From the NCBI GenBank assembly GCA_025057395.1, contig JANWXU010000022.1, positions 1 through 43,587 on the forward strand: a DNA stretch of 43,587 nt, read 5' to 3'. The stretch is from Bacteroidia bacterium (lineage in GTDB: Bacteria; Bacteroidota; Bacteroidia; J057; JANWXU01). Of the stretch, positions 1 through 17,700 are shown piece by piece; the first letter of the stretch is position 1; each line of letters opens with the position of its first letter. The position numbers and the translations under genes were made by a program. The notes beneath the pieces were generated by a model. That model was not told the DNA's origin. It worked only from the letters and a program-made list of their open reading frames with translations, and ran no database searches.

Positions 1-22
1 TTTCTTCCTTCATGCCGCACTC

Positions 23-3000
23 TTATTTCAAAACCACCTTCACCGTCTCCACATCAGCACCCTGCTGCAATTGCAACAAGTATATCCCCGACGCATAGCC
101 CGTCAAATCCAACTCCACACTATTCATCCCCTCTACCACTTCCACTCGCCTATCCACCACCACACGACCCGATACATCCACCACACGAATCCCCAACTCC
201 CCAAATACCCCACCCCTCAACTCTACTTGCAAACGTCCCGTCGTCGGATTCGGATACACTACGTACCTACTAACACCCTCCTCAACACCCGAATCTACCC
301 GCAAATTATCCACCACAAAATTCACTATCTCCGAATACTGCGAACGATTCGCTTCACTCGCAGGACAGCTCAAACAATGCGCCCGAACACGAACCCCATA
401 ACTAAATCCCGGCGTCAATCCCCCTATCCGATAACTGTTCGTGCTTATCCCACTCACCACCGCCCACGTCGCAGGATTCGCACTCGATAAACCATACTGC
501 AAATCATAACACACCGCCGTCGCATCCGAATTCCAGTGCACATCCACACTGTTCGAATTGTTCACCTGATTCACGTATACCCCACCCACACGACGACACG
601 TGCCCACTTGCGTCTGCAACGTCCTAAACGTAGCCACTTCACTCCAACTCGGCGACAATACCCCATTGCACCGACTCCTTACTCGAACCTCATAATTCGT
701 AAAGTTCTGCAAGTTCGTCAGCACATAACTCGACGTACTCCCAGGTATATTCTCCACCTCCGTCCAGCTCTGTGAACCCACCACCCGGTATTGCAATATG
801 TACCGAACATTCCCCCTCCCATTGTACGGCGTCCAACTCACTACCGCACTGCTCTCACTAATCTGACTGATACTCGTTATCTGCGTAACCCCAGGATTAT
901 TCACCGCCACCACCGTAGATACCTCACAATTCCACTTCACATTCCGTGCATATACCGTATAACTACCCGCCCGCAAATTCATAAAGAAATTGCTGCTCTG
1001 ATAGTTCACCCCATCCAACGAGTACACAAACTGCTGATCCGGAAAGTTCGCATCTACACGAGCCGTCGCCGTAATCATCCCATCGCTCTCCCCATCACAG
1101 CTCACATCCACCTTCGTCGCCACCAACTCTATCGCCGGCAACGTCGCCACCTCCACCTGTACCACATCCTCACTCGTACATCCACTCACATTATCCGTCA
1201 CCCGCAACGTGTAATTATATATCCCAGGTGCCGTCGTCGAAAATACAGGATTCGCTACATTCGAACTACTCAAGCGCGCCGCAGGACTCCAACTGTAACT
1301 ATAATCCCCACTCCCGTTGCTCGCACTCCCATTCAGCCGAACACTCCCCTGCGTACAAACATACACATTCCGAGCTCCAGCGCTCGCCACCGGCGGGTTC
1401 AACACCGTTATCGTCACCCGTGCACTCCCACTACACCCATTCACATCCGTCGCCGTCAACGTATATGTATACGTACCCACATTCTGTGCTATAAATGTCG
1501 GACGCAAACTATTGGCATTCAACAACCCACTCACCGGACTCCAACTAAACGTAGCCCCGCTCTGATCCCCTCCTATACTCCCCTCCAACACTACATTCTG
1601 ACCCCGGCACGTACCCCGATCCCGACCCGCACTCACATTCAAACTAAAGTTCACCACCACCTGCACAAAATCCACACTACTGCACCCATTCGCATCCGTC
1701 ACCGTCAACGCCAAATTGTACGTCCCAGCTACATTGCTACGAAATACAGGATTGGCTACATTCGCATCGCTCAAATTCTCGCTCGGACTCCACGTATACC
1801 GATAACTCCCAGTACCACCACTTGCCATCCCCATCAACTGTAACGGACTTCCTACACACACCTGCGCATCATTCCCCGCATTGGCAACCGGCGAAGTACG
1901 AACCTGCACCACTACACGACTGCTACTTACACACCCATTCGCATCCGTTACCTCTAATGTGTACACAAAATCTCCCGTCACATTGCTCAAAAACTGTGGA
2001 TTCCGAATATTACGATTCGATAAGTTCGTCTCCGGCGTCCACCGATAGCTATATGGCGCATCTCCCCCACTTGCCGTCCCATTCAACGTAATACTACTAC
2101 CCGTACACGCATTCACCACACCCCCAGCATTCGCTACCAACGCCTCCGCAACCCGAACATTTACACTACTAGTAGCACGACAATTGTTCGCATCCGTCAC
2201 CTCCAACGTATACACATAATTCCCCGGTACATTTAACGACAACGTCGGCACCGCTAAACTCGCATTATTCAAACCCGTACTCGGCGTCCAACGGTATACA
2301 TACCCAGCACCAGGAACTCCCCCTACCGCACTCCCCTCTAACGTCACACTCCCCCCAGCACACAACACCTTGTTGCTCCCAGCACTAGCCACCGGCGAAG
2401 GATTCACCAATATGCTCGCACTGCTCCTGCCTACACAACCCCTACTATCCGTCACCGTCAACGTATAATTATACGTACCCGCAATATTCGCATTAAACAC
2501 CGGCGCCTGTGCACTCGCATTGCTCAAATTCGCCGCCGGACTCCAACTAAAACTATACGGACCTACTCCCCCTACCGCATTCCCCTCCAACACTATCCCA
2601 CTCCCCGTACACGCCGTACGATTACCCCCCGCCGTCACTACCGGCAACGTGCTCACTTCCACCCGAACTACACCCTCCGCACTACACCCGTTCGCATCCG
2701 TCGCCGTCACCGTATAATTATATACCCCCGGTAACTCACTCAAAAATACAGGGTTCGATACACTCGCATTCGACAAGTTCACTATCGGCGTCCAACTATA
2801 ACTATACCCCGTAGGTCCCGGTAGTCCTCCACTTGCTCGAGCACTCAAGCTAATCCCAGAACCTACACACGCAAACCGCTGACTAGCAACCTCCACCACC
2901 GGACGATTATTCACCACAATATTCACACTCGAACTCCCACTACATCCATTCCCATCCGTCACCGTCAACGTGTACCGATAACTCCCAGCAACTTGCGTGC

Positions 3001-6000
3001 TGAATAACGGATTCGCCACATCACTCGAACTTAAATTCAGCCCCGGCGTCCAACTATAACGATAGTTCCTATCCCCCCCTACTGCAAAACCCTCCAACTG
3101 AACAACATCCCCACTGCACAAACGCAAATCACTCCCCGCACTCACCACAGGACGCTCATTTACCCTTATCTCTACCGTAGCACTCCGCTCACACCCCCGA
3201 GCATCCGTCACCGTCAATGTCACAGGATAAACTCCCGCTACCCCTCTGCTAAATACCGTACTCAATGTATTACGACTACCTATGCCCTCGCCACTCCACC
3301 TATACTCATACCCCCCTCCAAAACCCGGCGTACCCCCCACTACACTCCCCCGCAACACCACCTCATCACCAGGACATGTACTCCTTACACCCTCCACATT
3401 TACCACCATCGAAGGCAACACCATCAGCCCAACCACTCCACTATTACTACATCCATTCGCATCCGTCACCGTCACCGTATAACTATATACCCCACTCATC
3501 CCACTGTTGAACACCGGATTCGAAATCCCCGAATTGCTCAACATCTGAGCAGGACTCCAACTATAACTGTACCCAGGAGCTCCTCCACTTACTCGTACCC
3601 CCAATTCCAAATCCCTACCCGGGCATACCTCCCGCATCCCGTTCACTTCCACCACCGGCTTCGCATTCACCCGAACCAAAATCTCATCACTCGCACTACA
3701 CCCATTCCCATCTGTCACCGTCAACCGATACCGATAGTTCCCAGCAAAACGTAACGACAAACGAGTGCTCGCACTCCGTGAATCCTCCAACCCCTCATCC
3801 GGACTCCATTGATAACTATACCCCTGTGGGAAAAACGCTACCCCACCACTGGCTATCCCACTTATCCGAACCACACTCTCCGCACACTTCACCACATCCT
3901 CCCCAGCATTCACCACCGGAACAGGATTCACCACCACCGACACCATCGCCTGACCCTGACATCCATTCGGATCCACCACATCCACCCTATACGTATACGT
4001 CCCCGGCTCTAACGTCCTGAATACAGGATTAGCAATATCCCGAGCACTTAATCGCTCCCCAGGAGTCCATGTGTACCGATACCCAGGCGTACCTAAACTC
4101 ACACCCGGAACACTCGCCTGCAACTGCAACTCGCTCCCAGCACACACCGGTCGATATACACCCCCATCTACCCGTAACTGATTCCCCACTATCACCCGAA
4201 CGCTCGAAATCGCCTCACATCCAATATCATTACTCACCCGCAAGGTATATGTATACGTACCCACAAACGGCAACCGACCCCGTGGATTCGATACCCGCTG
4301 CGGATCCACCTCCCCATCTATCAAACCCTGACGTGGCGTCCAAAAGTAACTAAAATTCCCATTACCCCCACTCGCACTCGGATTCCCCCCCAAGGTAAAC
4401 ACACTATTCACACACGTCACCACCTCCCCACCAGCATTCGCTACCAAACGAGGATGTACTCGCAAATTCACAGAACCCACCGCTACACACCCCGCAGCAT
4501 CCGTCACCCGTACCACGTAACTAAAATCACTCACCTGTGCCACGTCTGGCGCATTAAACAGCGGCGACTCCGCCCTACTATCACTCAAATAACTCAACAA
4601 ACTCAACGGCGAATTCGAACTCCACTCAAAACTGTATGGCGCCGTACCCATCAACCCAGTACCCCCTTCCCCTCCCAACACCTGCGGCAAACCATTATAG
4701 CAATACTCCCGACTCGCCCCAGCATCCGCCATCGGCAATGGATTCACCTGTACCGTAATCATATCCCGCGCCTGACAACCCTTGCTATCCGTCACCACCA
4801 ACTCCAACATGTACTGCAACACATCCTGACCCCCTATCCTATCCGGACGAAACGTCGGATTCGGTACCACCCCACTCGACAATATCGAACCTATCGACGG
4901 AACCGCTATGTTCACCCCGCGCGTCACATTCCTTGCCCCCACTACCCGCCAACTGTAACTCAACGCTCCCGTACCCCCTCGACCACTCGGATTCCCCCCT
5001 AACACTACACTCCCATCCTGACAAACATTCACTACACTCGGACCCGCCTCCGCAACCGGCGCAGGATTCGAAAATGTCTCCCTCGTTAACCGAACCACAC
5101 ACCCCTTCGAATCTTCCACCTCCAACGTCACACTGTACCGACCACTCGGTAACTCCCGTGGATCTAAACTCGCTACCCGCATCTGATCATTACGCAATGC
5201 CCCTACCCCCGGATTTATCCTCCAATAGTACAAATACCCCTCTCCCAACGGACGCCTCGGACCCACAAACGGACTGCCACCACTTGCCTCCCCTATCAAA
5301 CTCACCACCTCCCCATTCTGACACAATTCCGCCGGTAAGTTAAAATTAATCCGAGGTAACCGATTCGTAAACACCGTCACCTGATCACTCCGCTGATTCC
5401 CCACCGCATCCGTCACCGTCACCGTATACACCACAGAATCCACACTCGGACTCGCTATCGGATTCGCTACCGTCCGTGAATTCAACCCACAGTTAGGCTC
5501 CACACTACATGTCCACCGATACGTATACGGCGGAACCCCTCCACTCGCCGTACGCGCTACCACCCGAGTATCCGTCTCATCATCCGGATTAATACCTCCC
5601 AACACCACACCATCCCCATTCTCACAACGCTCTCGGTTCGGACCCGCATACGCCCGCAACGAATTATCATCCCCAAACACCGTAAATATCCCTCGCGTTA
5701 CCCCAGGACTCGTCGCATTCACAAAATTCTCACGTCCTATCCGAATTATCACCCCCGCACTACTAGGTACACTCCGAATATCCGTATTCACCACCACATC
5801 CGAAGGCTGCAATGGACGCCATAGCGGAACTACTAAACTCGAACCCACTCCAGCCGCATTCGCCACAAACATCCGCTCCGGCAAATACGGACGAAAATCA
5901 TCCTCCGGATTCAACGCATCATTATCCCGCAACCAACTTAACCGCACACTCCAATTCACCGGATCCGCTCCCTGATAGCTCACCACCCAGCCCTGATCTA

Positions 6001-9000
6001 TACTCGAACTATTGAATGCAAAAAACGGCGACACCTCCCTATCCAACGACTGCGGCGGTAAATTCGGCTGCGACGCCCGATTCGGATTCGCAGGACTCGA
6101 TACCAACGGCTGTTGATTCTTCGTATCCGCCGTCCGACTCACCGTCCAAACACCCAACACATTCGCCCCTACCCCAGGTATCAACGTATACCCTATGTTC
6201 CCAAACGTCTCATTCCCCACACCACTAGGAATCCGACTCGTCTCCACCCTACCATGCACAAAATTACCAGCCCCCTCCGTCAACACCCCACTATACCGCA
6301 ACGTCCGCAACTCCCGAACATCATACAACTGATACAACGGCTGCTGTCCCGACGGCGTAGGCAATATCGTACGATACGGATACGTATATATATTCCCGTT
6401 CCCCACACCACTTAACGTCACATTGTTCGCACGAAAATCCGTCAACAGCTCCAACCGCTTACCCCCACTCACCGTAATATTATGCAACCGACTATCCCCC
6501 ACCAACGACTGAAACTTCAAATTCCTATTCACATTCACATTCTCCAACACCCCAGGATTCAATACACTCGTCACATAATCATCATCATGAAAATACACTA
6601 TATCCCCTCCCGCCTCATCCGCCAAATCATTCGCCCGCTGCGTAAAACTCACTCCCCCCAACGGCAATGGACCCGCATTCCAAACCCCAACATACCAAGC
6701 ATTCGCCTCCAACACCGCTAAATTCGCACTCGAATTGAACTGAACCCCAGGTCGAGTATTATCCCTATCCGGCAACTGCGCCCCACGACGATTCCCTAAA
6801 CTCGCATCCTGATCCTCCGAAAATCCCCCCAACCAAGGATTAAACGCTACATTCCCCCCCACTATCCGCTGCTGAAACGTAGAAGAAGGTCGAACGCTCG
6901 GATCCGTAAAATCTACCGCCTGCGGAACCCCTACATTCGGACTCCCACCATTATTCACATTCCTATTCACACTCACATTATTCACATCCAACCCAATCAC
7001 AGGACCTGCTGCACTCCCCCACCAGTTCCCCGTCGCATCTAACACCCCACTCGCCGAATTATTTATCAACGCACTCCCATTCCCTAAAGCATCATTATTG
7101 TGAAACGTATTGTACCGAACCCGTACCGCACTCCCATTCCCCCCACTCACCAACACCCCACCACGACGATTGCTCAACACGTGATTGTTCTCCAATAACA
7201 CACTCCCCACCTCCACCGAACTCGACGTCACCAACACCCCAGCATGTCCTACTGTGTTCTGCAAATTATTCCCCCATATATCATTAAACCGAATCTGTAT
7301 ATTCCCATTTACTCCACTACTCCCACTCTCCCGCAATATCACCCCACTCTGATACGTATTCTTCACCAAGTTCCGCTCTATCTTTACCCCCTCTACACTC
7401 GAACACCCATCTATCAATATCGCACTGCTCATCGTCCCATTCCCCTCAAAACTATTGTCACTTATATTCACCACCCCAGCATCTACATTATTCACATGCA
7501 ACGCTACCGCCGCCCCATCACTCGTACCCGATATCCGACGAAACGTATTCCCCACAAACTCTATCCCATGACTATGACCCACAAACGACGCCATCCCTAA
7601 ACCATTCCCGTTCCGCTGCAAAGGAAATACCTCCACCAAATTGTTCCTAAACCGAACCCCAACATTACTCCCACTGCTGTTCACCGCCTGATTCGTATTC
7701 GTCTCTATCCTAAATCCACTAAAATCCACCCGATTATTGTCCAATATGTTCAACGCCGCACCCATCGTAACACTCGTTATCTGCCGTATCGTAGCCTCCT
7801 GCGACGGATTCGAACCCTCCCCACGAACAAAACGAACATTCGCTATGTCCAACCGACCCGGACTTATCACCGCACTATACGTACGATACAAATTGTTCGC
7901 CACCGTACTCCTTGCATCCGCCTTCGGCGCAACCTCCTCCCCATTCTCCACACTCCTTATCACTATCCGCCCCTCGCTCCCACTCACCGTACCAAACTTA
8001 TTAGGTATCACCACATTCTCCACATACAAACCCCGCCATACCTCTATCTTATCCCCATCCTTGGCCAACGATATCGCCTTATTTATCATCCCATTCACCC
8101 CACCAACATCCACCGTAGGCGTCAACCGCTGCGGTCGATTCCCCAACACCGGACTATTAATCGACAACGGATAACTCGGATCAAATCCCACCCCTATGCT
8201 CTGAAACCCAGGAACCGGATACCGACCATTCATATACACCAAATAGTACGACACAGCCTCCTTATTCTGATACCCCGGCGTAGCAGGATCATCATCCGGA
8301 ATCGACAACGCCACCCCCGTATCTATCCCCTCTATATCCGCCGTACGACCCCCTAACCACGGACTGTATACCACCACATCCCCCTGACTCGACTCCAACA
8401 CCTCATTTATCCGCTGTCCACGACCCGCACCCAAATTATTCACCCCACCCAACGGAAATGTACTATTATTCAACGGATTATCCACATCCACAGGACCATA
8501 CTTGGCAGCACTCAAACTCTGATAATCCCACCAATTCCCCGTCGCATCTATCTGACCATACCGATTATCCCCATCCACAAACACCAACCGCTGCGCCAAC
8601 GCCTTAATACCATCCCGCTGCCTTACCACCCCAGGATTATAGCCCCCATCCGAAGGATCATCATTACCAATAAACAAATTGTAATTCACCCGTATATCCT
8701 TCTTGTAAAAATTACTCTGCGAACTGTTCACATCCGAAACATTCGAACTATTATTGCGCAACACCAAACCCGCATTCCCACACCCACGAATAATGTTATT
8801 CGTCACATATACCTTCGAACTCGTATTAAACTTACCAGTATTATTATGATCCGAAAATATCGCTATCCCCCCAGACTGCAAATAATCCACCAACGAACTC
8901 CCTACCAAATTACTCCTACGATTCGCACGCTCTATCGTGTTCGAATGCACCATAATATTCTCCATCCGACCCCCAGCATCCGTAATGTGTATCCCAGAAT

Positions 9001-10516
9001 TAAACGCATCACTCACCGTATTCAACTCCACCCGAACATTCACACTCCGCTGTACCACTATCCCATCCCCACCCGTACCACGCGCCACAATATTCCCACC
9101 TATCCGATGCATAAAACCCGGCAACAACGTATGCGGCCGCAAATCCTCCACATTAATCCCATGACCATTCACCCCATTCACCGACGTATTCGAAAAATAA
9201 TCCGCCCCAAACCGATTCCCCAATACCTCCACACTCTTGCTCCCTATCACATGTATCCCATTCACCATCAACGGATCCAACAACCGATACGCAGAAACCC
9301 GCTGCTCCAAATTATACATGTTATTCTCCCGTATCACCAACGTGTCCTGCGTCACCCCACTCGTATTCACATATATCCCACTCCCCCTTATGTTCGATAT
9401 CTGATTCCCCTCTATCCTAATATTCGTACTATACAACGGCGGCGGTAACGGCGCCCCCCCACCAAAATTCGTATGCTCCACATATATCGCATTATCCATC
9501 GTCCGTATCGGAAACCCGTTTATATCATTATTCAAATTCCCTATAAAATGATTCCCCTCCATAATCACCCGATACACCCGCTCCACATACACCGCTATCC
9601 CACCCCGATTATTCGCATTACTACTGTTCAAATTAAACGGCGCCCACGTAATATTATAAAACCGATTATCCACCATGCGCAACTCCACTATCGACTCAAA
9701 CAAATTAATCCCCCGATTATCCCCACCAGCTACTAAATTATTCTCCCCTAAAAAGATATTCTGCCGAAACGTCAGCTGCGTCGTACTTACATTGTTTGGA
9801 TTACAATTCCGATTAACCACCTCAAATATCCTACCCCCTAACACATTCCCCTCAGTACGTGACTCAAACATCAAACCCTCAAACGTCACCCGATTGTTAC
9901 ACCCAATCGAAAATATCGGACGATTCACCCCCACCGGCGGAATAAAACTATTATTCGGCGGCGCTACCGCTAACGGCCTATGCCCACCCCGTAAATTCGA
10001 TCCATTGGCCGCCGCCCCATACGGCGTGCGTATTATCGCCTCCCGCGTCGGATTATACTCCCGTATCGTAGGACCCCCAGGAAATGCCTGAACATTCGGA
10101 CTCTCCCCCACCCTAGGACCCCGAATAATCAAATGCTGCTGCAAACCCGCCTGCGCATAATTATTGGGTATAAATATCGTGCTCGGATCATTATAAATCC
10201 CCGGCCCTACATCAATAATATACGTCGTGCCCGGCGGCAATGGCGTTATCGCCTGACCCGTGTTCGGATCCAATAACGGAATATCCGTACGAAACTGGTC
10301 TATCGCCCGCTGAATCGTGGCAAAAGCCCCAGCAGAATTCGTCGGATCTGTCGAAGGAGTAATACCCGTACGCAAGTCATTACCCCCTACCCGTACATAG
10401 CGAATAATTTGGTTCGTTTGCGCCATCAGCTGACCCCCCACCAACAACCCCAACACCACCGCCAACGCGCTCAACTTTACCTTTCCTTGAATAAAGCTTC
10501 GTACTGTTTTAGACAT
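23..10516 (-). CDS. Giant T9SS-secreted surface protein: beta-helix, 17 PKD-like repeats, FN3, type A sorting tail
   Basis: About 3,497 residues. A signal peptide (lysine-rich, then LSALAVVLGLLVGGQLMAQ) is followed by a parallel beta-helix region (about nt 10410-8470) and a second one (about 8100-6960). Each ends in a TGNWW motif. An unrecognised linker (about 6960-5680) leads to 17 PKD/Ig-like repeats (about 5660-1140), one SprB-like repeat (about 1135-895), two fibronectin III domains (about 895-300) and a C-terminal sorting domain with YPNPTTG. By family knowledge it crosses the outer membrane through T9SS and is anchored to the surface or released; adhesion or gliding is inference. An in-frame ATG at 10606 lies at the predicted transcription start, so the ATG at 10516, directly before the signal peptide, was chosen. 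The coding strand is strongly G-rich and C-poor, unlike all neighbours. The ligand cannot be read from the sequence. Confidence 0.93.
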   Translation of the reverse strand: MSKTVRSFIQGKVKLSALAVVLGLLVGGQLMAQTNQIIRYVRVGGNDLRTGITPSTDPTNSAGAFATIQRAIDQFRTDIPLLDPNTGQAITPLPPGTTYIIDVGPGIYNDPSTIFIPNNYAQAGLQQHLIIRGPRVGESPNVQAFPGGPTIREYNPTREAIIRTPYGAAANGSNLRGGHRPLAVAPPNNSFIPPVGVNRPIFSIGCNNRVTFEGLMFESRTEGNVLGGRIFEVVNRNCNPNNVSTTQLTFRQNIFLGENNLVAGGDNRGINLFESIVELRMVDNRFYNITWAPFNLNSSNANNRGGIAVYVERVYRVIMEGNHFIGNLNNDINGFPIRTMDNAIYVEHTNFGGGAPLPPPLYSTNIRIEGNQISNIRGSGIYVNTSGVTQDTLVIRENNMYNLEQRVSAYRLLDPLMVNGIHVIGSKSVEVLGNRFGADYFSNTSVNGVNGHGINVEDLRPHTLLPGFMHRIGGNIVARGTGGDGIVVQRSVNVRVELNTVSDAFNSGIHITDAGGRMENIMVHSNTIERANRRSNLVGSSLVDYLQSGGIAIFSDHNNTGKFNTSSKVYVTNNIIRGCGNAGLVLRNNSSNVSDVNSSQSNFYKKDIRVNYNLFIGNDDPSDGGYNPGVVRQRDGIKALAQRLVFVDGDNRYGQIDATGNWWDYQSLSAAKYGPVDVDNPLNNSTFPLGGVNNLGAGRGQRINEVLESSQGDVVVYSPWLGGRTADIEGIDTGVALSIPDDDPATPGYQNKEAVSYYLVYMNGRYPVPGFQSIGVGFDPSYPLSINSPVLGNRPQRLTPTVDVGGVNGMINKAISLAKDGDKIEVWRGLYVENVVIPNKFGTVSGSEGRIVIRSVENGEEVAPKADARSTVANNLYRTYSAVISPGRLDIANVRFVRGEGSNPSQEATIRQITSVTMGAALNILDNNRVDFSGFRIETNTNQAVNSSGSNVGVRFRNNLVEVFPLQRNGNGLGMASFVGHSHGIEFVGNTFRRISGTSDGAAVALHVNNVDAGVVNISDNSFEGNGTMSSAILIDGCSSVEGVKIERNLVKNTYQSGVILRESGSSGVNGNIQIRFNDIWGNNLQNTVGHAGVLVTSSSVEVGSVLLENNHVLSNRRGGVLVSGGNGSAVRVRYNTFHNNDALGNGSALINNSASGVLDATGNWWGSAAGPVIGLDVNNVSVNRNVNNGGSPNVGVPQAVDFTDPSVRPSSTFQQRIVGGNVAFNPWLGGFSEDQDASLGNRRGAQLPDRDNTRPGVQFNSSANLAVLEANAWYVGVWNAGPLPLGGVSFTQRANDLADEAGGDIVYFHDDDYVTSVLNPGVLENVNVNRNLKFQSLVGDSRLHNITVSGGKRLELLTDFRANNVTLSGVGNGNIYTYPYRTILPTPSGQQPLYQLYDVRELRTLRYSGVLTEGAGNFVHGRVETSRIPSGVGNETFGNIGYTLIPGVGANVLGVWTVSRTADTKNQQPLVSSPANPNRASQPNLPPQSLDREVSPFFAFNSSSIDQGWVVSYQGADPVNWSVRLSWLRDNDALNPEDDFRPYLPERMFVANAAGVGSSLVVPLWRPLQPSDVVVNTDIRSVPSSAGVIIRIGRENFVNATSPGVTRGIFTVFGDDNSLRAYAGPNRERCENGDGVVLGGINPDDETDTRVVARTASGGVPPYTYRWTCSVEPNCGLNSRTVANPIASPSVDSVVYTVTVTDAVGNQRSDQVTVFTNRLPRINFNLPAELCQNGEVVSLIGEASGGSPFVGPRRPLGEGYLYYWRINPGVGALRNDQMRVASLDPRELPSGRYSVTLEVEDSKGCVVRLTRETFSNPAPVAEAGPSVVNVCQDGSVVLGGNPSGRGGTGALSYSWRVVGARNVTRGVNIAVPSIGSILSSGVVPNPTFRPDRIGGQDVLQYMLELVVTDSKGCQARDMITVQVNPLPMADAGASREYCYNGLPQVLGGEGGTGLMGTAPYSFEWSSNSPLSLLSYLSDSRAESPLFNAPDVAQVSDFSYVVRVTDAAGCVAVGSVNLRVHPRLVANAGGEVVTCVNSVFTLGGNPSASGGNGNFSYFWTPRQGLIDGEVDPQRVSNPRGRLPFVGTYTYTLRVSNDIGCEAISSVRVIVGNQLRVDGGVYRPVCAGSELQLQASVPGVSLGTPGYRYTWTPGERLSARDIANPVFRTLEPGTYTYRVDVVDPNGCQGQAMVSVVVNPVPVVNAGEDVVKCAESVVRISGIASGGVAFFPQGYSYQWSPDEGLEDSRSASTRLSLRFAGNYRYRLTVTDGNGCSASDEILVRVNAKPVVEVNGMREVCPGRDLELGVRVSGGAPGYSYSWSPAQMLSNSGISNPVFNSGMSGVYSYTVTVTDANGCSNSGVVGLMVLPSMVVNVEGVRSTCPGDEVVLRGSVVGGTPGFGGGYEYRWSGEGIGSRNTLSTVFSRGVAGVYPVTLTVTDARGCERSATVEIRVNERPVVSAGSDLRLCSGDVVQLEGFAVGGDRNYRYSWTPGLNLSSSDVANPLFSTQVAGSYRYTLTVTDGNGCSGSSSVNIVVNNRPVVEVASQRFACVGSGISLSARASGGLPGPTGYSYSWTPIVNLSNASVSNPVFLSELPGVYNYTVTATDANGCSAEGVVRVEVSTLPVVTAGGNRTACTGSGIVLEGNAVGGVGPYSFSWSPAANLSNASAQAPVFNANIAGTYNYTLTVTDSRGCVGRSSASILVNPSPVASAGSNKVLCAGGSVTLEGSAVGGVPGAGYVYRWTPSTGLNNASLAVPTLSLNVPGNYVYTLEVTDANNCRATSSVNVRVAEALVANAGGVVNACTGSSITLNGTASGGDAPYSYRWTPETNLSNRNIRNPQFLSNVTGDFVYTLEVTDANGCVSSSRVVVQVRTSPVANAGNDAQVCVGSPLQLMGMASGGTGSYRYTWSPSENLSDANVANPVFRSNVAGTYNLALTVTDANGCSSVDFVQVVVNFSLNVSAGRDRGTCRGQNVVLEGSIGGDQSGATFSWSPVSGLLNANSLRPTFIAQNVGTYTYTLTATDVNGCSGSARVTITVLNPPVASAGARNVYVCTQGSVRLNGSASNGSGDYSYSWSPAARLSSSNVANPVFSTTAPGIYNYTLRVTDNVSGCTSEDVVQVEVATLPAIELVATKVDVSCDGESDGMITATARVDANFPDQQFVYSLDGVNYQSSNFFMNLRAGSYTVYARNVKWNCEVSTVVAVNNPGVTQITSISQISESSAVVSWTPYNGRGNVRYILQYRVVGSQSWTEVENIPGSTSSYVLTNLQNFTNYEVRVRSRCNGVLSPSWSEVATFRTLQTQVGTCRRVGGVYVNQVNNSNSVDVHWNSDATAVCYDLQYGLSSANPATWAVVSGISTNSYRIGGLTPGFSYGVRVRAHCLSCPASEANRSQYSEIVNFVVDNLRVDSGVEEGVSRYVVYPNPTTGRLQVELRGGVFGELGIRVVDVSGRVVVDRRVEVVEGMNSVELDLTGYASGIYLLQLQQGADVETVKVVLK
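1140..5660 (-). repeat. Array of 17 tandem PKD/Ig-like domain repeats within the giant surface protein
   Basis: Seventeen units of about 82-105 residues (about 250-315 bases) follow each other without linkers. A typical unit runs: V-x-A-G, a cysteine followed by G or similar, a short strand ending SGG or VGG, Y-S-Y-x-W-(S/T)-P, NLS-x-x-x-VANPVF, an aromatic strand, then TVTD-x-NGC. Units nearest the C-terminus (about 1140-3700) are the most regular. Those nearest the N-terminus are longer and more diverged. Sixteen of the seventeen have exactly one cysteine near the start and one at the NGC position. At DNA level the stretch encoding LTVTDANG recurs almost unchanged about every 250 bases, for example near 1439, 1688, 2441, 2691, 2948, 3199 and 3454. 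Confidence 0.9.
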
Positions 10517-10611
10517 ACGACTTTTTAAATTTTGTTTAATAATGTTACAAAGTTGAAAGTAACCACTATAAGCAGCAATAAGACCTGCAGAATAGTAGTT
10601 CTTCAAGGGTG

Positions 10612-10645
10612 CAAAATTATATAAAATTGGAATAATAGCAACAAA
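10612..10645 (-). promoter_or_regulatory. Bacteroidota-type promoter of the giant surface protein
   Basis: Read on the minus strand, TTTGTTG (10645-10639) is followed about 19-22 bases later by TAATTTTG (10619-10612), matching the -33 TTG / -7 TAnnTTTG consensus of Bacteroidota. Transcription would start near 10605, leaving a leader of about 90 bases before the ATG at 10516. No experimental start site is available. Confidence 0.6.
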
Positions 10646-14761: not shown

Positions 14762-17700
14762 ATGAAATATACTATTTTCAAAACATTCTCTTTTACTTTG
14801 CTCTTTTTTGCACTTCTTGCTTTAAATTTTTTAAAGTCACAAATTCTGCAAGAAAGACCCATTTTAGAAATTAACCAGGCTCGTAAATTTGATAATAGCC
14901 CACTTGCACCAGAAGTTAAAAAGGGAGAACTATTTTTTCGAGTAGTAGCAGGGATAGAAGAAAATATTCCTATTTTTAATAACATTCATGAATTAGATAA
15001 TTTAGTAAAAAACAATGGAGTACCTGAGTATTGGCAAAGAGTCTATAAAGAATTTGGAGTACAGGCCGTAGAAAAGGCATTTAAAATAAAAACCGAAAGA
15101 CTACAAAGATATTTCAAAATCACTTTTACAGAACATCACTTACAAGAAGAGCTTGAAAAACAACTCAAAAACTTACCAGGTATAGAACATGTAGAAGGCA
15201 TACCTATTTATCGTTTATTTTCACAGCCTAATGACATCCACCCTACACAGTGGGGGCTTTCACGTATTAATGCTCTAGGCGCATGGACCCAAACTACAGG
15301 ACGCTCAAAAGTAGTAGTAGCTATTGTAGATGACGCAGTTAAAATAACCCATCAAGATTTAAGAGATGTAATTTATCGCAACCCCAACGAAATACCCAAC
15401 AATGGTATCGATGACGACCAAAATGGCTACATCGACGATATTAACGGCTGGGATGCAGGCGATAACGATAATAATCCTAACCCACCAATAAGAGCTAGAG
15501 ATATGATTTTTTCGCATGGTACTCATTGTGCGGGAATTGCCGGCGCAACTACTAATAACGGGAAAGGAATCGCTTCGATTGGTCACAATATTTCTATTCT
15601 ACCCGTTAAGGCTGCTGATGATAATAGCAGCGGAACTGGTATTTCTGATGGCTACCTGGGTGTACAATATGCAATTATTGCTGGAGCTGATGTAATTAGC
15701 ATGTCTTGGGGCGGGGCTGCATCTTCCCAAGCTATACAAGACCTGTTTAATTACGCAAATAGCATCGGGATTGTACTAGTAGCAGCAGCAGGAAATAATA
15801 ACCAGAATCAACGAATTTTCCCTTGTGCTTATAACCACGTAATATGTGTTGCTTCTACAGATTTTTCCGATAGAAAAAGTGATTTCTCCAATTACGGCAC
15901 TTGGGTAGATGTTTCTGCCCCCGGAGAATACATATATAGTACGGTAGCAACTCATGATAGTGCCTATTTTTATTACGATGGCACTTCCATGGCTACTCCT
16001 CTAGTTGCGGGACTTTGTGCACTAATGAAGTCTTATAACCCTTCTCTCACGCCTGCTCAAATTGAAAGCTGCCTTAAGTCTACAGCAGATAATATCGATA
16101 ACATTAATCCTAATTTTAGGGGACTCCTAGGAGCGGGAAGAATTAATGCTAGCGCGGCCATACAATGTGCGGCTCCCCCCAAGCTAGACTTAGGATTTAT
16201 ACAACGCATTCAAAATGGCGTAGCACTTCTATGCGAAAACCAAGAAAATATACAGATTACCCTACTTAATAGCGGGAGCGAGCGTATAAACCACTTTACT
16301 ATTCGATATTCGGTTGGCGCAAATAATTGGCAAACCCAAAACGTTAGTGCCAATATTGAAGCGGGAGAAGAATATATTTTCGTTATGCCTTTGCCAAGAC
16401 CACTACCCTCAGCAGGAAATTACGAAATACGTGCTGAAATTCTTTCAGTAAATGGAAGTGCTGACCAAAATATACAGAACAATACGTTGCTAGCCTTTTT
16501 ACGTATCCCCAAAATCGAAAACCTTACCTGTGGAAGTCGCTTTACAGGTACTACGACTAATGCACCACAGATAAATAGCCGCTATAATTGCAATGCTAAC
16601 CGCAATGAAACGGGCCCAGAAGTATATCACAGAATTGTTATTTCTGAAAAAGGAATTCTAACTATCACCCTTAGCGGCGCAACCACCAATACTCATGTTT
16701 ATTTGCTTTCCGCCTGCTTCCCCAATCGATGTGTTAATTTTGGAACAGCAACTTTTAGTACTTTTGTAGAACCAGGAACTTACTATATCGTAGTAGAAAG
16801 TCCTAATGCCCAAGGTACAAACTATACTCTATCAACTAGCTGTCAGCCTTTAGCATGTAATACTAGTTCTACAGCTACAATTTCTTGCGGTACACCCGTA
16901 CAAGGGCAGCTTACTGGAAATCAAAATATACTCAATAACTATAACTGTGGAGCCACGGGGCAAAATGCAGCAGAAAGAATTCATAGAATTATAATTAACG
17001 AGCCTACTACTCTTTCGGTACAAGTAAGTACAAACACCACAAACGCTACCATCAGAGCACTTGTATTAAGTAATTGTGACCCTGCTACCTGCTTGGGATC
17101 TGCTCTGGGTACAGCCATAGGAAGTAACCAGATTCTAACTTTACCAAGCCTTCAACCCGGAGAATATTTTATTGTAGTGGACGGAACAGCAAATGGGAAT
17201 TATACACTGTTAGTAAATTGTATAAGTTGTAGCAATCCAATACCCTTACAATGCGGTGTGCCCTATTCGGGCACTACAGCGGGAGGAGTAAATAGAATTA
17301 ATACATACAACTGTAGTACTCAAAATTTAAGTGGTAGCGAAAATGTTCATCAAATTACGGTAACAGAAGCTGGAATCCTTAGGGCCCAATTAAGGAATGC
17401 CAATCCAAATATGCGCGTAATCTTATTAGATAATTGTAACTCGCAGCGTTGCCTTGCTATTAGTGATACAGCTCTACAAGTTTTTGTACCCAACGGTGGT
17501 ACCTATACAATTGTAGTAGATGCTACCACACTAGTAAGTGCTGGCGCCTACCAACTAACCGTCGATTGTTTACCTTATCGCTGCCCTACTCCTATTAACC
17601 TAAACTGCGGACAAACCTATAATGGTAATACAGCTAATGGAACAAGAACTATCTCGCGCTATAATTGTGTTAATAGGCTAGTTGCAGGTCCGGAAGTTTT

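Follow-up and report, generated by a model that had tools for sequence, protein, structure and literature searches.

A giant gene in the window has a coding strand loaded with purines, chiefly G, at each of its three codon positions, and the bias is confined to the open reading frame. The window is the whole of contig C144 (43,587 bases), from an AT-rich Bacteroidia genome of 4.08 Mb in 244 contigs. Three other giants, on contigs C110, C206 and C60, are biased as well, and a fourth, on C165, is partly so, with a composition graded among them. A patch of one domain's length with the same signature lies within an otherwise normal giant on C178. Tentatively, we favor the reading that these sequences represent a small private set of compositionally distinct modules that has been shuffled among giants and is now relaxing.

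The protein is a type of T9SS cargo, as defined by the Por_Secre_tail sorting domain at its C-terminus (E 1.9e-11, residues 3450-3525, exceeding the curated cut-off). The N-terminus, as read from the translation, has a Lys-containing start followed by a hydrophobic stretch, LSALAVVLGLLVGGQLMAQ, a candidate signal peptide. The features of the gene and its surroundings are the following.

10612..10641, minus strand: promoter-like site, TTG-N19-TAATTTTG, of normal composition
10481..10609, minus strand: likely 5' untranslated region and codons 1-12, without G bias
10380..10479, minus strand: sharp start of the bias, with G 41 and C 13 per 100 bases
23..10516, minus strand: giant T9SS-cargo gene, 3,497 aa, ATG at 10516 and TAA at 23
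9209..9745, minus strand: right-handed beta-helix segment (Pfam PF13229), residues 288-466 of the 3,527-aa reading frame
1217..5539, minus strand: PKD/Ig-like repeat array, repeats of about 83-86 aa (K319L-like PKD, PKD_4, Ig_7), with approximate bounds taken from the translation
626..874, minus strand: fibronectin type III domain (PF00041)
32..259, minus strand: T9SS C-terminal sorting domain (Por_Secre_tail, PF18962)
1..77, no strand: contig edge; the same 77 bases open contigs C194 and C90

The promoter-like site fits TTG-N19-TAnnTTTG, the Bacteroidota promoter consensus, and a dihydroorotate dehydrogenase gene is divergent from the giant gene. Bases 10517-10609 upstream of the gene contain 13 G and 16 C, and early codons (TCT AAA ACA GTA CGA AGC TTT ATT CAA GGA) likewise show no G bias. 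Past the 3' end, GC content drops from the gene's 0.51 and reaches about 0.30-0.35 after no more than 150-300 bases. Within the first 110 bases of C194 (L226) and C90 (L225), the shared 77 bases are followed by the same terminator-like hairpin, GAAAGCCCTCCAA...TTGGAGGGCTTTC. The hairpin loop is inverted between these contigs (AATTTTT versus AAAAATT), and the 3' end of the gene forks into both. The 77-base identity suggests that another gene shares this 3' end or that the population contains two flanks.

The sequence-only reading had described the coding strand as G-rich and C-poor relative to neighboring genes, and its plus-strand base counts are exact: 31 C and 6 G in 2581-2640, 23 and 11 in 8101-8160, and 20 and 8 in 9721-9780. 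The coding strand has a GC skew of +0.48 at a GC content of 0.51. On the plus strand, the skew lies between -0.43 and -0.57 (GC 0.47-0.55) in all 1-kb windows that are wholly in the gene up to about position 10000, in sharp distinction to the remainder of the window, with a skew of about -0.23 to +0.14 (GC 0.29-0.43). Third positions in the 3528 codons comprise 1713 G (49%), 1274 T (36%), 370 A (10%) and 171 C (5%), compared with 13.5% G in the genome. The claim that C-ending codons are almost absent is right, as C accounts for 4.8% of third positions and 1.5% of four-fold sites. The bias well exceeds chance. When the same protein is recoded with the codon usage of other giants, the skew is +0.19 and GC 0.43, so amino-acid content and ordinary codon usage account for under half of the skew. 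The fraction of G at third positions (G3) is at least 0.34 in 68 of 68 windows of 150 codons in the giant gene, against a background of 7,618 windows that averages 0.135 (sd 0.041) and peaks at 0.39. About 45% of the genome (1.83 Mb) was read directly, and no other complete gene with comparable G3 is present among its 812 ORFs of at least 150 aa. The gene is thus unlike its host in composition.

The sequence-only reading described this bias as strongest in the repeats and rising toward the 3' end. That is not confirmed, and the bias stays level between about codon 12 and the stop codon. The third-position skew starts at 0.65 over the first 200 codons, reaches 0.81-0.94 in the beta-helix and middle regions, and lies at 0.66-0.82 in most PKD repeats. 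Four-fold G is 0.60-0.72 in each 350-codon block, and the bias of the beta-helix segment equals that of the rest of the gene. Long antisense frames fit their proposed status as a side effect: because there are just 46 in-frame TTA, CTA or TCA codons, we estimate that the longest such frame should reach about 340 codons, and a frame of 350 is seen.

Purines make up 0.80 of four-fold sites in the C144 gene, 0.79 in C110, 0.79 in C206, 0.70 in C60 and 0.65 in C165, whereas the share in 435 windows of other giants is 0.417 +/- 0.045 (maximum 0.534). In the same order, four-fold G/(G+A) is 0.85, 0.81, 0.70, 0.65 and 0.42, against a background of 0.29. Four-fold C/(C+T) is 0.07-0.23 in the biased genes versus 0.24 in the background; it is near normal in C110, C206 and C165, and lowered in the C144 gene (z -2.6). 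Because purines are raised while C:T stays near background in most of these genes, C is scarce largely because pyrimidines as a whole are scarce. A raised four-fold purine share requires transversions, and at its core the shift is a loading with purines through transversion. In C165, the purine shift is clear (z 5.1) and G:A is nearly normal (z 1.8), so this gene looks like a once G-rich member that is relaxing by transitions. First and second codon positions are affected too. Across 28 tails, their G content rises with G3 (r = 0.90, slope 0.43), and the domains concerned also have higher V/(V+I), R/(R+K) and Gly. A preference for ATA among Ile codons was considered as evidence against mutation and dropped, because ATA:ATT equals GTA:GTT, as exchange between Ile and Val would give.

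The giant gene is not unique, as had been implied. In the last approximately 400 codons, G3 is 0.47-0.52 in the C206 and C110 genes, 0.38 in C60 and 0.27 in C165. The C110 and C206 proteins are 83-86% identical, with identities of 55-57% for C60 and 40% for C165. Among 134 distinct T9SS-tail genes, 4 have G3 of at least 0.35 in their last 176 codons (median 0.15), and none of those outside the biased set shares the bias in these codons. The genes on C110, C206, C60 and C165 are all truncated by contig ends, and further short pieces of relatives are located at the ends of C10 and C191. The upstream bodies of the genes broken at these six contig ends were not found in the bin. Such breaks and missing bodies suggest loss by composition-based binning. 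At least 150 sorting domains of T9SS type occur in the genome, many of them in giants of 4,000-7,900 aa. Giant T9SS genes are exceptionally numerous in this genome (on C167, C88, C133, C193, C180 and others), with frames of up to 7,941 aa.

The giant on the minus strand of C178 (L111) has 3,387 codons and is normal, save for codons ~690-815, which carry the full G-rich signature with sharp edges. No paralogue of this patch is present in the stretches read. A lone, domain-sized patch in an otherwise normal giant suggests that the composition travels with DNA segments, as a process acting on the locus would not be expected to single out one domain. Contig C241 opens, within another giant, with a tandem block of 762 bases in nearly identical copies (99.4%; L089, 1-1524). 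Third positions in this block are keto-biased (C3 ~2%, T3 ~54%, G3 ~31%), and later, older repeats differ. Four-fold purines in the block are 0.54, and its pattern fits transitions.

Replication strand was rejected as the sole cause of the bias. The mean third-position skew is +0.18 for leading-strand genes and -0.17 for lagging-strand genes, so this factor explains only about +/-0.18 of the +0.82 in the giant gene, and neighboring genes on the same strand do not share the skew. Every biased gene lies on the leading strand. However, 40 of 59 giants are also located there, and the occurrence of 5 out of 5 biased genes on this strand is therefore not significant. The leading-strand location would nonetheless be expected of mutation in place, in which a leading-strand gene is strongly transcribed and R-loops, with its G-rich non-template strand displaced, reinforce themselves by deamination of that strand. 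Restriction of the bias to the transcribed stretch, the shift at nonsynonymous sites, and the C241 block, which is nearer to the expected transition signature, also are consistent with such a process. Mutational bias from transcription had been proposed from the sequence. As a sole cause, transcription-associated deamination is unsupported, because C>T and A>G transitions leave the purine share unchanged, whereas that share climbs from 0.42 to 0.80 at four-fold sites, with C:T close to normal in C110, C206 and C165. Moreover, the genes for EF-Tu and EF-G, whose high transcription we assume, lack the bias: they favor A-ending codons, with third-position skews of 0.23 and 0.10 that are of leading-strand type. 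The C178 patch sits within a co-transcribed normal gene, and G-quadruplex motifs are not enriched (2 in the native sequence versus 3-7 in codon shuffles). Mutation in place is thus improbable. Selection for G- or purine-rich, C-poor sequence in the giants' transcripts or coding-strand DNA, which might allow a 10-kb message to escape Rho termination or RNases, also is unlikely, if still worth considering. It would account for the scarcity of 78-nt windows in which C exceeds G (0.06% in the giant gene, compared with 46% in other giants and 14% after recoding), for effects at every codon position, and for a bias that starts after the leader and ends at the ORF edges. However, dozens of giants of equal or greater length are compositionally ordinary, and the C178 patch is only one domain long. 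Selection for unstructured mRNA was rejected because the native message is slightly more structured than the recoded one (-28.9 versus -26.8 kcal/mol per 120 nt), and selection for G-quadruplexes was discarded in view of the motif counts above.

Translational codon selection, another of the causes proposed earlier, fares worse, and it is most improbable that giants draw on a private or slow set of tRNAs. C34 tRNAs are present for Val, Thr, Gly, Pro, Ser, Leu and Arg, and their cognate codons are little used elsewhere, as might be expected of such a set. Yet GAG (93%) and CAG (89%) are preferred in the giant gene as strongly as codons with a C34 tRNA, although tRNAs with CUC, CUG or CGC (for GCG) anticodons were not found in the genome. 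Four-fold G also varies with the first base of the next codon (highest before A at 0.79, lowest before C at 0.41), amino-acid content shifts, and the codons of the gene resemble neither those of highly expressed genes, which end in A, nor the tRNA supply. An assembly or binning artefact that joined a foreign gene to the contig is very unlikely. The contig stops 22 bases beyond the stop codon and other biased genes also lie at contig edges, as an artefact might produce, but the native-like promoter and leader are continuous with the ORF, genes of the same kind occur on other contigs with normal neighbors, and the 77-base overlap connects the gene's 3' end with two further contigs in this bin. 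A further possibility, although less likely than not, is that an undescribed process specific to this gene family, whether of mutation, conversion or selection, pushes the coding strand toward G in a subset of the giants, such that strand composition marks a separate, shuffling pool of surface-protein modules within one genome. Both transversions and transitions would then add G at every codon position.

The private module set that we favor would comprise the T9SS giants of C144, C110, C206 and C60, together with the partly relaxed C165. Module DNA would be purine-loaded on the coding strand, mostly with G, at three codon positions, and its composition would be a property of the DNA lineage and not of the locus. 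This lineage may have been acquired from an unsampled organism, or may have been made under a regime that spares the rest of the genome. Duplication and domain shuffling would have spread it among giants, and G to A transitions would relax older members toward the AT-rich host, with the slower-changing purine:pyrimidine ratio retaining a memory of the original composition. The existence of the additional biased genes, their graded purine share and G/(G+A), and the abrupt onset after a native-like promoter, leader and first 12 codons argue for this module set. The leading-strand location that biased genes have in common with 40 of the 59 giants counts against it, as does the failure to find a donor of like composition in 84,980 species, plasmids or viral contigs. 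The direction of relaxation is inferred: as an outgroup, C60 is too diverged to polarize the changes between C110 and C206.

A foreign or compositionally distinct origin is the best of the three causes considered from the sequence-only reading. The C178 patch and the graded paralogues help this proposal, but the searches found no donor. A probe for G-ending PKD motifs recovered 54 stretches from 84,980 species, none with a third-position skew above 0.36, and an N-terminal search did not find relatives outside the genome. Relatives of the C110 tail in 395 Bacteroidota genomes are only 37-49% identical, and none was found in plasmids or viral contigs. No match of like composition was found in 395 genomes of the class, 395 genomes of the phylum, plasmids or viral contigs. 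Thus, no relative or donor of like composition was found outside the host lineage in these searches. We know of no genome with such strand asymmetry throughout.

The biased genes resemble several known systems in part. As under Szybalski's rule, the coding strand of the giant gene is enriched in purines at free positions. However, purine loading under that rule is a mild trend that is genome-wide or linked to temperature, whereas here it is extreme, involves G rather than A, and affects few genes only. The G-rich, C-poor non-template strand is reminiscent of immunoglobulin switch regions and their R-loops, but the giant gene lacks a transition-only signature, and no signs of R-loops, deaminase or targeted recombination were seen. 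In domain architecture, with a sorting domain and PKD and fibronectin type III modules, the gene is like the SprB-like T9SS giants of Bacteroidota with PKD/Ig repeats; it differs from other such Por_Secre_tail cargo genes in base and codon composition. Giant repeat genes are reported in PMC2528017, which cites Reva and Tummler 2008, to have high or moderate 'pattern skew', in which word usage differs between the strands. The giant gene, a long repetitive ORF with strand-asymmetric oligonucleotide usage, is likewise such a gene. The phenomenon is thus already described and is not new in kind. Relative to the giants described there, most giants here have normal composition and the extreme ones form a small paralogous set; the bias is no weaker in the beta-helix part outside the PKD repeats, and it resolves into purine loading at four-fold sites. 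What is new is the limitation to a small paralogous set among many giants, the presence beyond the repeat array, and the resolution as purine loading.

Strand asymmetry is usually ascribed to replication or transcription, and these few genes depart from both. Because equally long sister genes are unbiased, they provide a clean test case for gene-by-gene base composition. Composition-based binning may systematically drop such giants from metagenome-assembled genomes. Third-position skews of 0.59-0.66 also occur in three genes of ordinary length, with GC at third positions of only 0.25-0.37. These genes encode a TPR-like protein, an ATPase-like protein and a small conserved protein, and are located at L048:13991-15349 (minus strand) and at L050:13249-14337 and 16051-16818 (plus strand).
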